A stretch of 38,674 bases of DNA from Peterkaempfera griseoplana (lineage in GTDB: Bacteria; Actinomycetota; Actinomycetes; Streptomycetales; Streptomycetaceae): the NCBI RefSeq assembly GCF_001418575.1, contig NZ_LIQR01000198.1:1-38674 (forward strand), written 5' to 3'. The position numbers were made by a program, and so were the translations under genes. Position 1 is the stretch's first letter; every line of letters begins with the position of its first letter. The notes beneath the pieces were generated by a model that saw nothing but the letters and a program-made list of their open reading frames with translations, was not told the origin of the DNA and did not search any database. This document shows positions 25,629 through 31,528 of this stretch, piece by piece.

Positions 25629-26001
25629 CCGGGGCGTCGAGGCCGGCGCGTCGTACGACCGCTCCGCCGGCCGGTCGGGTGCCGGGCCGCCGGGGCCGCC
25701 GGGGCCGCCCGGGCACGCGGGGCCGTGGTCGTCGACGGGCACCCGCGGCCATGCCCACCGCTCCGAGGACGCGGCCTGTTCCGACGGCCGCCTCCATCGC
25801 CGGTCCCCGCCGCACGGCTCCGGCCAAGGCGGCGGTCGACGCCGGCACCCCGTTCGCGGGCATCCGGACCCCCGGCATCACACCCGGCCGTCCACCGGCC
25901 GCCGGAACCGGACGTGCCCCCGATAACTGATGACACGTCAAAGGCGTTATGGGCGGCGGATTCCGAAAGGCGGCGTCCGCCGCCCGCTTCTCGGCCGTAT
26001 T
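25629..26001. other. Non-coding stretch upstream of the ArsR gene
   Basis: About 370 bp with no gene I can support. It holds a hairpin near its start, three 9-bp GGGCCGCC(G/C) tandem units (25684-25710), and short open frames on both strands with only mediocre third-position GC. An ATG-started frame at 25751-25930 ends in TPGRPPAAGTGRAPDN but has no ribosome site and no recognised family. Confidence 0.5.
25641..25672 (+). terminator. Hairpin, probable terminator
   Basis: GGCCGGCG (25641-25648) and CGCCGGCC (25665-25672) give an 8-bp stem. The 16-nt interior holds the palindrome GTCGTACGAC. It starts 13 nt after the stop at 25628. Confidence 0.65.
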
Positions 26002-26017
26002 GCAGAGACTTCTCTGC
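26002..26017. promoter_or_regulatory. ArsR operator, copy 1
   Basis: GCAGAGA-CT-TCTCTGC, perfect 7-bp arms with a 2-bp centre. Same core as copy 2, with centres 28 bp apart (close to three helical turns), upstream of the ArsR-family gene. Confidence 0.82.
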
Positions 26018-26026
26018 CGAGACACC

Positions 26027-26055
26027 TATGCAGAGAGTTCTCTGCATCCTAGAGT
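26027..26055 (+). promoter_or_regulatory. Putative leaderless promoter of arsR-MFS
   Basis: TATGCA (26027-26032) and TAGAGT (26050-26055) are spaced by 17 bp. The expected transcription start is at 26062, the A of the ATG, giving a leaderless mRNA. No Shine-Dalgarno precedes 26062. Operator copy 2 fills the spacer. Inference from spacing. Confidence 0.4.
26028..26047. promoter_or_regulatory. ArsR operator, copy 2
   Basis: ATGCAGAGAGTTCTCTGCAT, perfect 9-bp arms with a GT centre. It ends 14 bp before the ATG at 26062 and overlaps the proposed promoter spacer, so bound regulator would block transcription. Confidence 0.85.
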
Positions 26056-26061
26056 GTGTCC

Positions 26062-26700
26062 ATGGCCGACACCCCAGCACCCGCATCCGCCCCGGAACCC
26101 GCAACCGGACCCGTTTTCGCCCCAGGCGACAAGCCGGTCCGCCGGATCGACGCCCGCAGCCTGCGCGGCTTGGCACACCCGCTGCGCATGCAGATCCTCG
26201 AACTGCTGAACCTCGACGGACCCGCCACCGCAACCGGGCTCTCCGAGCGCCTCGGCGAGAAGACCGGCACCGTCAGCTGGCATCTGCGTCACCTCGCCGA
26301 GCACGGCTACATCGAGGAGGAGACCGGCCGCGGCACCAGGCGTGAGCGCTGGTGGCGCGTGGTGCAGAGCACCCGGGTACTCAACACCGGCGACTTCAGG
26401 GACTCCCCGCAGGCCCGGGGCGCACTCTCCGTCTACATGCACGAACTGGTGCAGCAGTACTACAACCGTGTGACCGACTACCTCAACGACGACTGGCCGG
26501 AGGAGTGGCGCAACGTCGGAACCCTCTCGGACTGGAGCGACCTGCGGCTGACGCCCGCACAGCTCGGCGCCCTCAACGCGGAGCTGCGCGAGGTCGTCGC
26601 GCGGCACACCCCGGCGCCGGGCACCGAGCCCGGGCCCGACGCGCTCCCCGTCATCGTGCAGCTCCAGTCGTTCCCCCGCCACCCGCGGGGTGGCGCATGA
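26062..26700 (+). CDS. ArsR-family transcriptional regulator
   Basis: A 212-residue winged-helix regulator. The core (about 30-110) reads RSLRGLAHPLRMQILELLNLDGPATATGLSERLGEKTGTVSWHLRHLAEHGYIEEETGRGTRRERWW, the classic ArsR/HTH_20 pattern. There is no cysteine at all, so it is not a metal-thiolate sensor. The C-terminal 100 residues (SVYMHELVQQYYNRVTDYL) probably bind a small ligand and dimerise. It overlaps the MFS gene by ATGA. The two palindromes in its promoter are likely its own operators. Start: ATG 26062; GTG 26056 is in frame but would precede the inferred transcription start. Confidence 0.9.
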   Translation: MADTPAPASAPEPATGPVFAPGDKPVRRIDARSLRGLAHPLRMQILELLNLDGPATATGLSERLGEKTGTVSWHLRHLAEHGYIEEETGRGTRRERWWRVVQSTRVLNTGDFRDSPQARGALSVYMHELVQQYYNRVTDYLNDDWPEEWRNVGTLSDWSDLRLTPAQLGALNAELREVVARHTPAPGTEPGPDALPVIVQLQSFPRHPRGGA

Positions 26701-27998
26701 GCCGCGGACTGCGCGGCGGACTGCTGCGCCGCCACCGGGACTTCCGCCTGCTCTGGTCCGGGGAGACCACGGGCAAGTTCGGCAGCGCCGTCACCGGTGT
26801 GGCCATGCCGCTGGTCGCCGTCTCCACCCTGCACGCGGGCACCCTGGAGGTCAGCCTGCTGAGCGCCGCCGCCTGGCTGCCCTGGCTGCTGATCGGACTC
26901 CCTGCCGGAGCCTGGGTGGACCGGATGCGCCGCCGGCCGGTCATGCTGGTCGCCGACGCGGTCTCCCTGCTGGTCTTCGCCGCCGTCCCGGTCGCCGCCT
27001 GGTGCGGCGCGCTGAGCATCGCCGGGCTGATCGCCGCCTCCCTGCTGGCCGGTACGGCCGCGGTGTTCTTCCAGACCGCCTACAGCGCCTACCTCCCGGG
27101 CCTGCTCGCCCCCGAGGACCGGCCCGAGGGCAACGCCAAGCTGCACGGCAGCGCCTCCGCCGCGCAGATCGCCGGTCTGGGCGCGGGCGGTCTGCTCGCG
27201 CAGGCCCTGGGGGCGGTCAACGCCCTGTTCGGCGATGCGGCCACCTTTCTGGTGTCGGCGCTCTGCCTGCTGAGGATCCGTCACCGTGAGCCGCGCCTCC
27301 CCGCGGCGGAGCGCCCCCGGAAGGCGCTGGTGAAGGAGGTCGGCGACGGACTGCGGCTGGTGGCGGGTGACCCGTGGATCCGTACCATGACGCTCTTCGG
27401 CGCGGTCTCCAACCTCTGGCTGACCGGCTATCAGTCGATCCAGGTGGTGTTCCTGGTCAGGGAGGTCGGACTGGCCTCCGGAGCAGTCGGCGGCCTGATC
27501 GCCGCGAGCAGCATCGGCGGGGTGGTGGGCGCCCTGGTCGCCCGCCGGGTCGCCGCCAGGGCGGGCACCGCCCGGGCGCTGCTGGGCTTCGAGCTGGGCG
27601 TCCCCGTGCTCGCCCTGCTCATCCCGCTCACCACCGGTGGCGCCGGACTGGCCTGCTATGTGGTCGGCGGTCTCGCGGTCTCCGGCGGGGTGGTCGCCGG
27701 AAACGTCATCAAGTCCAGCTTCCAGCAGAGCTACTGCCCGCCCGCCCTGCTCGGCCGGCTCGCTGCCAGCAGCGCCTTCCTCAACTACGGCACCATCCCG
27801 CTCGGCGCCGTCCTCGCCGGAGTGCTCGGCACCACCCTCGGCATCCGGCCGGCGATGTGGATCACCACGGCGGGAGTGCCGCTGGCCGCCCTGATCCTGT
27901 ACTTCTCGCCGATCCGCCGCTGCCGGGACCTGCCGTCCGGCCCTCCGGAGGAGACACGGACCACCGCGCCGCAGCCCGCGGCAGTCGAGCTGGTCTGA
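26697..27998 (+). CDS. MFS exporter (EntS/MFS_3-like) co-transcribed with the ArsR regulator
   Basis: A 433-residue, twelve-helix exporter. The opening LLRRHRDFRLLWSGETTGKFGSAVTGVAMPLVAV is typical of the EntS/MFS_3 group that exports siderophores, macrolides or other drugs. The loop after helix 2 is GAWVDRMRRRPVML. The C-terminal 40 residues are polar and rich in Pro and Thr. Start: ATG 26697 overlaps the regulator stop (ATGA). An ArsR-MFS pair under a self-operator suggests substrate-induced efflux. Substrate unknown. Ends at a convergent terminator. Confidence 0.9.
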   Translation: MSRGLRGGLLRRHRDFRLLWSGETTGKFGSAVTGVAMPLVAVSTLHAGTLEVSLLSAAAWLPWLLIGLPAGAWVDRMRRRPVMLVADAVSLLVFAAVPVAAWCGALSIAGLIAASLLAGTAAVFFQTAYSAYLPGLLAPEDRPEGNAKLHGSASAAQIAGLGAGGLLAQALGAVNALFGDAATFLVSALCLLRIRHREPRLPAAERPRKALVKEVGDGLRLVAGDPWIRTMTLFGAVSNLWLTGYQSIQVVFLVREVGLASGAVGGLIAASSIGGVVGALVARRVAARAGTARALLGFELGVPVLALLIPLTTGGAGLACYVVGGLAVSGGVVAGNVIKSSFQQSYCPPALLGRLAASSAFLNYGTIPLGAVLAGVLGTTLGIRPAMWITTAGVPLAALILYFSPIRRCRDLPSGPPEETRTTAPQPAAVELV

Positions 27999-28085: not shown

Positions 28086-29756
28086 TCAGCGGTGTCCGGC
28101 CGCCGGCCCGGGCGGCGCCCCCGCCAGCCGCAGCTGAAGCATCGCCAGCAGCCGCTGCTCGGGATGGGCGAGGTCCAGGCCGGTGAGCTCCTCGGCGCGG
28201 CGGACCCGGTAGCGCAGCGTGTTGGGGTGGATGTGGAGCCGCTCCGCCGCCGAGCGGACGTCGCCGAAGGCGTCCAGGTATGCCAGGACCGACTCGGCGA
28301 GCCGGGTGCCGTGCCGGGCGTCCCGGTCGGTGAGGGCGGTGAGCGCGGGATCGCGCAGCGCGGGCCGGTCGGCGAGCAGCGCGAGGACCTCGCCGAGGAG
28401 GACCTCGGCCGCCACCTCGTCCAGCGAGGCGACCTCGGCGAGCACCCTACCGCGGTCCATCGCCGCGAGCACCCGGTCGGCCTGCCGCCGGGAGTCGGGT
28501 ACCTCCGCGAGCCGGGGGACGACCGGTCCCACCGCCGCCTGGAGGCGTACGCCCAGGTGACGCCCGGCGGCCTCGGTGATCTCCATGACCCAGCCGCGCA
28601 CGGTGGCCGGCGACAGCCCGGCCGGCAGCTCCGGCAGCAGGACGTACACCCGCGACTCGGCCGGGGAGAGCAGGGCGCTGTGATGCCTCGCCGCGGCGTG
28701 CACCGAGATCAGCGCGGTCAGCTCGCTGCGGGTGAACTCCACGCCCGACGCCTCGGAACCGGCGTCCCGGGTGGCGGGGCGCAGGGCGAAGCCGATCACC
28801 AGGGCGGGGCGGCGGGCGTCCAGCCCCAGATGGGTGGCCAGCGACTGCGGGCCCGTGGAGCCGTCCAGCAGCCCTGCCAGCAGCGACTGGGTGAGCCGCA
28901 GGTCGGCGGAGACCTCGCGGCGCCGCCGTACCAGGTGCAGCGCGGCCACCCGGGCCGCGCCCAGCAGTGCCTGTTCCGAGCGGGGCTCCAGCGGGCGTGA
29001 CCCCTCCTGCACCCAGATGGTGCCCAGCGGCTGCGTACCGGCCCGGATGCCGATCGCCAGGCGGCGGCGGATGCCCAGCTCCGGGTGGTCGTCGATGGCG
29101 ATGACCGCGTCCGAGGTGCGCAGATGCTGGAAGACGCCCCACTCCCGGAGCTTGGAGAGGTAGGGCTCGGGGCCCTGCCAGCCCAGGATGGAGAGCCTGC
29201 GCAGGTCGTCCACCTCGTCGGAGGAACGCGAGTAGGCCAGCACCCGGCTGGAGGTGTCCTCGATGGAGACGATGCCGCCGGTCAGTACGGCCGTGGTCTG
29301 GGCCAGCGAGAACAGGTCCCCGCTGCCCTCCGCGCCGCCCGCGCCGGCCTCCGGGCGGCCGCTGCCGAGGACGGCGCGGGCCAGTGCGTCCAGGTGCTCC
29401 CAGCGGGCCTCCCGGCGCACCGACAGCAGCGCCACCCCGGCCTCCGCCGCGGCCTCGCTGAGCATCGCGGCCTGCCCGGGGGCGTCCAGCTTCACCGCGA
29501 CGGCCGCCGCCCCGGCGGCACCGGCCGCCCGCAGCGCGGGCAGCGCCGCGCGGCCGCGGGCCCCGATGGCCAGCACCAGCTCGCCGGGGAGGGCCTGAGC
29601 CGGGTCCTCGGGGTCGAGGATGGCCACGTCACGTACCTCGACGTCGAGCCCCGCCGGGGCGGCCTGCAGCTCCACCAGCGGTTCGCCCAGCGACATCAGC
29701 AGCTGGCGCAGGCTGATGCCCTCCTCGGCCGTGGACGCCGGCTTCTGCTCGGCCAC
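28086..29756 (-). CDS. PucR/CdaR-type regulator of proline catabolism
   Basis: A 556-residue regulator. The N-terminal region EEGISLRQLLMSLGEPLVELQ and following DVAILDPEDPAQALPGELVLAIG is the PucR-type sensor domain. A GAF-like middle follows (SLAQTTAVLTGGIVSIEDTSSRVLAYSRSSDEVDDLRR). The C-terminal CdaR helix-turn-helix reads LAESVLAYLDAFGDVRSAAERLHIHPNTLRYRVRRAEELTGLDL. It is divergent from P5C dehydrogenase; PucR-type activators of proline catabolism (PruR) are known in mycobacteria, so control of that operon is likely. Start: GTG 29756 by homology to a MAEQKP-type N-terminus; ATG 29822 is a longer option. Confidence 0.88.
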   Translation of the reverse strand: MAEQKPASTAEEGISLRQLLMSLGEPLVELQAAPAGLDVEVRDVAILDPEDPAQALPGELVLAIGARGRAALPALRAAGAAGAAAVAVKLDAPGQAAMLSEAAAEAGVALLSVRREARWEHLDALARAVLGSGRPEAGAGGAEGSGDLFSLAQTTAVLTGGIVSIEDTSSRVLAYSRSSDEVDDLRRLSILGWQGPEPYLSKLREWGVFQHLRTSDAVIAIDDHPELGIRRRLAIGIRAGTQPLGTIWVQEGSRPLEPRSEQALLGAARVAALHLVRRRREVSADLRLTQSLLAGLLDGSTGPQSLATHLGLDARRPALVIGFALRPATRDAGSEASGVEFTRSELTALISVHAAARHHSALLSPAESRVYVLLPELPAGLSPATVRGWVMEITEAAGRHLGVRLQAAVGPVVPRLAEVPDSRRQADRVLAAMDRGRVLAEVASLDEVAAEVLLGEVLALLADRPALRDPALTALTDRDARHGTRLAESVLAYLDAFGDVRSAAERLHIHPNTLRYRVRRAEELTGLDLAHPEQRLLAMLQLRLAGAPPGPAAGHR

Positions 29757-29821
29757 CGCTCGCTCACCCCGCTTTCGTACGGGCGGACAAGCCCCGGCCC
29801 CCGATGTTAGCCGCGACGACA

Positions 29822-29850
29822 ACGGTGGGAGGGATAGCAGCTCCTACCGT
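29822..29850. promoter_or_regulatory. Inverted repeat between the PucR-type gene and P5C dehydrogenase gene
   Basis: ACGGTGGGAG-N9-CTCCTACCGT has 9 of 10 arm pairs matching. It is in the divergent control region 53 bp before the dehydrogenase ATG. A TAACAT box on the minus strand (29802-29807) could be the -10 of the regulator gene. Candidate PucR-regulator site. Confidence 0.55.
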
Positions 29851-29902
29851 GGGCAGTGACGCGAGACCCGCGGCCAGAGGCGATTCAAAGGAGAGCGCGC
29901 GC

Positions 29903-31528
29903 ATGGATGCTGTGACCCAGGTCCCCGCGCCGGTGAACGAGCCGGTCCACAGCTACGCCCCCGGCAGCCCTGAGCGGGCCCGTCTGGAGGCGGAGCTGAA
30001 GCGGCTCGCGGCGGAGCCCACCGAGCTGACCATGACCATCGGGGGTGAGCGCCGCCTCGGCGGTGGCGAGCCGATCGACGTGGTCCAGCCGCACAACCAC
30101 GCGGCGAAGCTCGGCACCATGCGCAACGCCACCCGCGACGACGCCCAGGCGGCGGTCGACGCGGCCCTCGCTGCCGCCCCCGCCTGGCGGGCGCTCTCCT
30201 TCGACGACCGCGCCGCGGTCTTCCTCAAGGCCGCCGACCTGCTGTCCGGCCCCTGGCGGGAGACCGTCGCCGCCGCCACCATGCTGGGTCAGTCCAAGAC
30301 CGCCCAGCAGGCCGAGATCGACTCGTCGTGCGAGCTGGTCGACTTCTGGCGGTTCAACGTCCACTTCGCCCGGCAGATCATGGCGGAGCAGCCGGCCTCC
30401 TCGGCCGGTGTGTGGAACCGCAGCGACCACCGCCCGCTCGAGGGCTTCGTCTATGCGATCACCCCGTTCAACTTCACCGCCATCGCCGGCAACCTGCCCA
30501 CCGCCCCGGCGCTGATGGGCAATGTGGTGGTGTGGAAGCCGTCCCCCACCCAGCAGCTCGCCGCGCACCTGCTGATGCAGCTGCTGGAGGAGGCCGGACT
30601 GCCCAAGGGTGTGATCAACATGGTGACCGGTGACGGCCTGGCCGTCTCCGAGGTCGCCCTCGCCCACCCGGAGCTGGCCGGTATCCACTTCACCGGCTCC
30701 ACGCCGACCTTCCAGCACCTGTGGCGCACCGTGGGCGAGAACATCGCCCGCTACCGCAGCTACCCGCGGCTGGTCGGCGAGACCGGCGGCAAGGACTTCA
30801 TCGTCGCCCACCCCTCGGCCGACCCGGCGGTGCTCAGGACCGCGATGACCCGTGGCGCCTTCGAGTTCCAGGGCCAGAAGTGCTCCGCCGCCTCCCGCGC
30901 CTATGTCCCCGCCTCCGTCTGGGAGCGGATCAAGGACGAGTTCCGCGACGAGGTCGAGGGCCTCACCATGGGCGACGTCACCGACCTCGGCAACTTCATG
31001 GGCGCGGTGATCGACGCCCGCGCCTTCGCCAAGAACAAGGCCGCCATCGACCGGGCCAAGGCAGACCCGTCGGTCGAGGTCTTCGCCGGCGGAGGCTACG
31101 ACGACTCGGTGGGCTACTTCGTCCGGCCGACCGTGCTGCTCTGCTCCGACCCGGACGCCGAGTACTTCCGTGAGGAGTACTTCGGCCCGGTCCTCGCGGT
31201 GCACGTCTACGAGGACGAGCGCTACCAGGAGGTGCTGGAGCAGCTGGAGTCGGTCGCCTCGTACGCGCTGACCGGCGCCGTCATCGCCCAGGACCGCGCG
31301 GCGATCGCGCACGCCATGGAGACGCTGCGGTTCGCCGCCGGCAACTTCTACATCAACGACAAGCCCACCGGTGCGGTCGTCGGGCAGCAGCCCTTCGGCG
31401 GGGGCCGGGCCTCCGGCACCAACGACAAGGCCGGCGCCGCCCAGAACCTGCTGCGCTGGACCTCGACACGGTCCATCAAGGAGACGTTCGTCCCGCCGAC
31501 GGACTACCGCTACCCGCACATGGGCTGA
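29903..31528 (+). CDS. pruA: Delta-1-pyrroline-5-carboxylate dehydrogenase
   Basis: NAD-dependent enzyme that oxidises glutamate-5-semialdehyde (open form of P5C) to glutamate, the second step of proline breakdown. The 541-residue monofunctional protein has the catalytic glutamate in LVGETGGKDF (E293), the nucleophile cysteine in FQGQKCSAAS (C327), the AITPFNFTAIAGNLPTAPALMGN fold region, and the C-terminal PTGAVVGQQPFGGGRASGTNDKAG motif. Start: ATG 29903 with AAAGGAGAG 8 nt upstream. It precedes proline dehydrogenase, from which it is separated by 291 nt with a hairpin. Confidence 0.96.
   Translation: MDAVTQVPAPVNEPVHSYAPGSPERARLEAELKRLAAEPTELTMTIGGERRLGGGEPIDVVQPHNHAAKLGTMRNATRDDAQAAVDAALAAAPAWRALSFDDRAAVFLKAADLLSGPWRETVAAATMLGQSKTAQQAEIDSSCELVDFWRFNVHFARQIMAEQPASSAGVWNRSDHRPLEGFVYAITPFNFTAIAGNLPTAPALMGNVVVWKPSPTQQLAAHLLMQLLEEAGLPKGVINMVTGDGLAVSEVALAHPELAGIHFTGSTPTFQHLWRTVGENIARYRSYPRLVGETGGKDFIVAHPSADPAVLRTAMTRGAFEFQGQKCSAASRAYVPASVWERIKDEFRDEVEGLTMGDVTDLGNFMGAVIDARAFAKNKAAIDRAKADPSVEVFAGGGYDDSVGYFVRPTVLLCSDPDAEYFREEYFGPVLAVHVYEDERYQEVLEQLESVASYALTGAVIAQDRAAIAHAMETLRFAAGNFYINDKPTGAVVGQQPFGGGRASGTNDKAGAAQNLLRWTSTRSIKETFVPPTDYRYPHMG

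Follow-up and report, generated by a model that had tools for sequence, protein, structure and literature searches.

The window, a stretch of 38,674 nucleotides from Peterkaempfera griseoplana, contains a pair of genes on the forward strand that overlap by ATGA. The first (26062..26700) encodes an HTH_20/ArsR-like regulator of 212 amino acids without cysteine, recognized by its translation, profile searches and a structural model, and the second (26697..27998) encodes an MFS transporter of 433 amino acids. The regulator scored above the Pfam cut-offs for HTH_20 (PF12840, 41.1 bits, cut-off 27) and HTH_5 (PF01022, 29.9 bits, cut-off 22), and the transporter above those for MFS_1 (88.7 bits, cut-off 33.4) and MFS_3 (81.5 bits, cut-off 27). 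The closest NCBIfam profile of the transporter was TIGR00900 (2A0121, H+ antiporter), which matched over the full length at 176.5 bits, with a cut-off of 319.6. Further downstream lie a divergent PucR-type regulator and aldehyde dehydrogenase (28086-29822, reverse strand, and 29804-31528, forward strand), whose listed 5' ends overlap; this pair resembles a proline-use regulator pair.

Upstream of the regulator gene, a motif scan found two exact copies of the palindrome GCAGAGA-N2-TCTCTGC, with centres 28 bp apart. The first (predicted operator site 1, 26002-26017) covers positions -60 to -45 from the predicted transcript start, and the second (site 3, 26030-26045) covers -32 to -17, with arms that extend to 9 bp over 26028-26047. 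A degenerate copy with three mismatches (site 2, 26016-26031, -46 to -31) lies between them in a 14-bp register, giving an array of three at spacings of 14 and 14 bp, in which neighbouring 16-bp sites overlap by two bases each. An independent repeat search also returned three copies, 14 and 14 bp from start to start. The original prediction had described twin operators; the two exact palindromes, their distance and the 9-bp arms are all present, but the array is a triple one with a degenerate middle copy. A GC-rich inverted repeat with 15-nt arms, 87% complementary and 5 nt apart, lies upstream of the array (25951-25985), and is perhaps a terminator-like hairpin; a terminator scan found none at this position.

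A genome-wide search for the motif, which had been proposed together with the original prediction, covered 8,242,899 bases in 802 contigs and found these two exact copies only, with no further exact target; the next best sites had two mismatches. The motif in its loose form (up to three mismatches) is not rare in the window, where it occurred 4 times against a mean of 1.87 in shuffled sequence (13 of 100 shuffles reached 4). The two exact copies are rare.

Relatives of the regulator were collected for comparison. A first set of 36 relatives from named genomes, reduced to 35 by dropping L040 (a 48-residue match), came mainly from Streptomyces, Kitasatospora and Kribbella, and also from Actinacidiphila, Streptacidiphilus, Microbispora and Microtetraspora. 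Loci L042-L044, beside the window's own L041, and L046-L073 were added (L045 was dropped), together with 100 more taken among the matches listed, mostly by rank. Removal of duplicates left 156 distinct loci, which are related by descent, so that the counts given here are not of independent events.

At least one site with up to three mismatches was present upstream of the regulator in 35/35 relatives of the first set. A simple word count divided the 155 loci with a usable start into a GCAGAG class (98 loci), a GCAAAG sister class (48 loci) and 9 loci in neither class; among the latter, L101 and L122 carry the array before the MFS gene. Sites within four mismatches numbered 2.74 per locus on average, compared with 0.08 in shuffled sequence. 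The distance between consecutive sites was 14 bp in 172 of 180 cases for the GCAGAG class and in 80 of 84 for the sister class. By eye, the period in some GCAAAG loci (for example L148, L152, L156 and L139) is nearer 13 bp than 14, and in many loci of this class TTGCAAAGAA is repeated directly, with a single inverted half-site at the end. An irregular lattice was seen in L109 and L117, from two genomes of one genus (g5), where exact palindromes are 37 bp apart, which is no multiple of 14.

The 98 GCAGAG loci were sorted into 83 of a Streptomyces type, 14 of a Kribbella type and 1 odd locus (L057). In the 83 Streptomyces-type loci, 16-18 nt lie between the end of the array and the start codon. 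The last site had up to three mismatches in all 83 and was exact in 31; the corresponding counts were 62 and 21 for the first site, and 76 and 2 for the middle site. The order perfect, degenerate, perfect found in the window is thus typical. An alternative is that dimers bind sites 1 and 3 only, the middle copy being a relic or a reflection of the -35 element. This reading draws on the two exact outer sites and the three mismatches of site 2 in the window, and on the scarcity of exact middle sites among the relatives. Against it, a recognizable middle site (up to three mismatches) is commoner than a recognizable first site, and Kribbella-type loci keep two adjoining sites 14 bp apart, not 28. 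We regard two-site binding as unlikely, though a good deal less so than the other alternatives considered below, and favor an array of three. The right half of the middle site often reads CTATGC or CTTTGC in relatives, a form that may be compatible both with the outer W-T of the site that follows and with a -35 element W-T-G at a spacer of 16-18 bp.

A candidate -10 box, TAGAGT (26050..26055, -12 to -7), is followed by 6 nt and then by the ATG at 26062, which places the predicted transcript start on the A of the ATG (26062). The candidate -35 element, ATGCAG (26028..26033), is weak and lies within the operator, at a spacer of 16 bp from the -10 box; most relatives have W-T-G at 16-18 bp. A scan of the window with a plain sigma-70 consensus detected no promoter. 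The original prediction had the second palindrome fill the promoter spacer, and site 3 indeed lies between the -35 and -10 elements, with the reservation that the -35 itself is weak. A GTG at 26056 was considered as the start codon and dropped, as it abuts the -10 box and relatives start at the position of the ATG.

Among the 156 distinct loci, 151 had TANNNT 6 or 7 nt before an in-frame start (ATG in 131, GTG in 20), a count in which the starts had been picked with the box in mind. In a recount that took the nearest ATG and ignored the box, the gap was 6-7 nt in 128 of 139 loci, and no other gap between 0 and 59 had more than 2 loci. The box was absent at this distance in 5 loci (L055, L011, L012, L021 and L157). 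Shine-Dalgarno tetramers occurred in 0/151 TANNNT loci, compared with 9.1% in shuffles. A leaderless start of the regulator gene, on the A of the ATG as originally predicted, is strongly supported by this comparison, since the TANNNT box keeps a fixed distance to the start in 151 of the 156 loci and Shine-Dalgarno tetramers are missing from all 151.

The Kribbella-type loci separate the box from the array. In 13 of them (L022-L036) 3-4 nt separate the end of the array from the start codon, and the protein begins approximately 25 residues later in the alignment. TANNNT lies within the last operator in these loci, at a distance from the start of 6 nt in 12 loci and of 7 nt in one, and arises mostly by a T-to-A change inside the operator. 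The spacing to the start codon is therefore constant for the box and variable for the array. These observations bear on a reading in which transcription starts from an upstream promoter, giving a leader in which the palindromes function as RNA. Inverted repeats could fold, and the -35 element is weak; but the fixed position of TANNNT where the array moves, and the missing Shine-Dalgarno tetramers, make such a leader very improbable, and the RNA hairpin was set aside. We retain the leaderless start.

We next considered which protein binds the array. Relatives of the regulator (E-value 1e-25 or better) are very common in the family, being found in 232 of 297 genomes. Exact sites were found in 49 of the 297 family genomes, and a control with the reversed pattern gave 0 in every genome. 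By hand tally, the exact sites lie just upstream of a relative of the regulator in 41 of these 49 genomes. The other eight include three (G268, G219 and G220) in which the sites precede more distant HTH_20 regulators, by eye with TANNNT six bases before the ATG, one (G012) in which the array precedes the MFS gene beside the regulator, and four (G085, G260, G053 and G041) in which no match to the regulator or the MFS protein was found near the exact copies. In G268 (locus L174, 1018-1061) the array, with exact sites 28 bp apart, separates the gene of an HTH_20 regulator from the divergent gene of an ABC-transporter ATPase, which indicates that the operator block is not limited to MFS pairs.

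The operator class was compared with the predicted recognition helix. All 98 GCAGAG loci encode T70 and W73, and all 48 GCAAAG loci encode A or S at position 70 and Y73. The operator class thus changes together with the recognition helix in the sequences compared, with the two classes corresponding to two clades, so that the association is confounded by descent. The distant proteins of G268 and G219 combine the helix T-G-T-L-S-Y with GCAGAG, which may point to residues 68-70 rather than 73 as those that matter, a lead only. A 44%-identical relative in G170 (L121 and L213) has an altered recognition helix, which aligns as S-G-N-M-S-W. Neither class word occurs at L121; by eye, a different inverted repeat, CGAAG-N4-CTTCG, is present, with TANNNT still six bases before the ATG. 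Judged from these sequences, this is a single natural example in which the operator has changed along with the helix. No MFS match was found downstream of L121 and L213.

Binding by a protein other than the adjacent regulator would be in keeping with the sites that precede MFS genes and the three more distant HTH_20 regulators. We consider it improbable, as 41 of the 49 genomes with exact sites have them at a relative of this regulator, the recognition helix covaries with the operator class, and the genome contains no further exact target. The adjacent regulator is the preferred binder. A design common to all HTH_20 proteins was also examined within the genome, which has 43 PF12840 matches. 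Seventeen others were taken, of which 15 were readable (without L184 and L198). TANNNT was found near the start only in L185 and L195, and the array was upstream of neither, so a common design was not supported among the 15 loci read.

All 55 loci examined have an MFS gene downstream of the regulator gene. L043 and L044, which are among them, belong to the GCAAAG class, with MFS proteins 34% and 28% identical to that of the window; an MFS gap of -618 recorded for L024 looks like an artefact of the gap formula. In two genomes the array lies directly before the MFS gene and not before the regulator, and TANNNT precedes the MFS ATG by 6 or 7 nt. In G012 this MFS gene adjoins the regulator, and in G292 a two-site version, 26 bp apart and with one mismatch in each site, precedes the MFS gene. 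Where the array is displaced from the regulator it sits before the exporter, which points to the exporter as the decisive target.

In some ArsR proteins, CzrA for example, the metal is coordinated by His/Asp residues of helix alpha-5. The original prediction had concluded from the lack of cysteine that the regulator senses an organic ligand. The translation confirms the lack of cysteine, which extends to 93 of the 98 GCAGAG-class relatives, but this argument is insufficient alone, given the His/Asp used by CzrA-like ArsR proteins. The metal ligands expected of ArsR/SmtB metalloregulators, cysteines in alpha-3 or conserved His/Asp in alpha-5, were not found: the protein has no Cys, and His is conserved (at least 90% of the 98 relatives) at residues 39, 74 and 81 only, and at no position in the predicted helix 116-142. 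The absence of conserved His in this helix and the drug-exporter-like MFS partner favor an organic ligand, which is plausible but weakly founded. Sensing of a metal ion, as in classic ArsR/SmtB proteins, would agree with the ArsR fold and with a weak match to the NCBIfam metalloregulator model HTH_metalloreg (NF033788). The score of 39.9 bits is below the cut-off of 55, cysteine and a conserved His in helix 116-142 are missing, and the partner is a drug-exporter-like MFS protein; metal sensing is accordingly improbable, and an organic ligand is preferred.

The AlphaFold model of the regulator is of only moderate quality (mean pLDDT 72.3, pTM 0.60), in which the winged helix is predicted with confidence and the C-terminal part less surely. 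Its best fold matches were Kfla_6221 of Kribbella flavida, of unknown function (PDB 4g6q; Foldseek E-value 1.3e-6; Z 10.6 over 115 residues at 4.3 A), and PH1932 (1uly, 2cwe; Foldseek E-value 3.7e-5; Z 9.5 over 85 residues at 2.1 A), both at 17-26% identity. ArsR folds are among the best structural matches, and the metalloregulators CzrA and CadC have Z scores within 1 of the best, so the structural ranking does not separate the candidates.

Several copies of the site overlap the predicted promoter of the regulator's own gene, a layout that fits an autorepressor with multiple operators. Based on these comparisons, we propose that the array at 26002-26045 very probably mediates cooperative autorepression, relieved by a ligand, of the single leaderless promoter of the regulator-MFS pair. 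Regulator dimers would bind up to three overlapping palindromes 14 bp apart. At this spacing adjacent dimers would be rotated by approximately 120 degrees, which could leave room for them next to each other around the helix. Site 3 would fill the space between the -35 and -10 elements, site 2 would cover the edge of the -35, and site 1, just upstream, probably adds cooperative binding. Together the occupied sites would block RNA polymerase, most likely by occlusion, at the lone promoter of the pair. The transcript would begin on the A of the regulator ATG, so that ribosomes would translate the first gene without a leader and start on the MFS gene at the ATGA overlap. Release of the regulator by a ligand, probably the substrate of the exporter or a related small molecule, would induce both genes, and newly made regulator would reset the switch.

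The reading of the locus as an induction switch, made in the original prediction, is strongly supported by the relatives, which share the array, its 14-bp register, the fixed distance between -10 box and start, the constant MFS pairing and the near-exclusive association with one type of locus. We infer from this arrangement that the regulator is the binder, that binding is cooperative, that it represses rather than activates, and that a ligand relieves it. The poor -35 element, with no promoter detected by the consensus scan, the degenerate middle site in the window, the confounding of helix and operator class by descent, the moderate structural model and the five loci that lack TANNNT at 6-7 nt count against this explanation.

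A broader interpretation, which we put forward tentatively at somewhat below even chances, is that the array represents a family-wide operator lattice, with dimers every 14 bp and an evolving number of units, that is tied to the leaderless start and movable as a whole. As 14 bp is approximately 1.33 helical turns, neighbouring dimers would be approximately 120 degrees apart, and a fourth position would return to the first face after 42 bp, so that the promoter would be sheathed all round. An operator half-site would also serve as the -35, and the Kribbella operator would contain the -10. The lattice would have two to four or more units, a number tuned in evolution. The start codon would form one block of approximately 60 bp with the operator and promoter, and this block could also be transferred to the exporter gene by itself or to a regulator opposite an ABC transporter.

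The grammar of such an operator would be TTGCARAGA every 14 bp, TANNNT, 6-7 nt and ATG. If readable, it would allow the start codon, the operator and a near single-target regulon to be called from sequence alone. The block would offer a compact inducible leaderless control element, and inducers, if found, would provide a route to the compounds handled by these exporters.

An overlapping 14-bp lattice with a leaderless start was not found in the open-access literature, an absence that is weak evidence; in one open-access Streptomyces paper that contains TGCAGAGA, it is part of a primer. Several known systems share parts of the design. CmtR of Mycobacterium tuberculosis, of the ArsR/SmtB family, is said, in a title cited by PMC3338718, to bind several operators cooperatively and to repress its own gene. 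It would thus resemble the present regulator, a predicted ArsR-fold autorepressor with several operators; CmtR senses Cd/Pb, whereas the regulator here lacks cysteine and scores 19.7 bits against the CmtR model, with a cut-off of 150. The ArsR-like Rv2034 of M. tuberculosis is an autorepressor with a palindrome footprinted from -30 to +3 (PMC3338718). It has a single palindrome with 8-bp arms and a 4-bp spacer, compared with the 7-2-7 sites every 14 bp, with shared end bases, in the window.

In Streptomyces bottropensis, RslR4 represses its own gene and that of the MFS exporter RslT4, and is released by products and intermediates of the pathway (PMC7917814). RslR4 belongs to the MarR family and binds between the two genes, with no overlapping array evident in the sections consulted. 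Leaderless transcripts are common in S. coelicolor, where approximately 21% of primary starts are of this type, many of them for regulators, TetR above all (PMC4895711); a further study counted 264 leaderless mRNAs, among which no functionally linked group stood out (PMC4681348). The S. coelicolor figure is a genome statistic, whereas here the predicted start keeps a fixed position across the family along with the operator lattice. The general type of switch, an autorepressor paired with an exporter, is already known; the layout of the operator here is unusual and strongly conserved.
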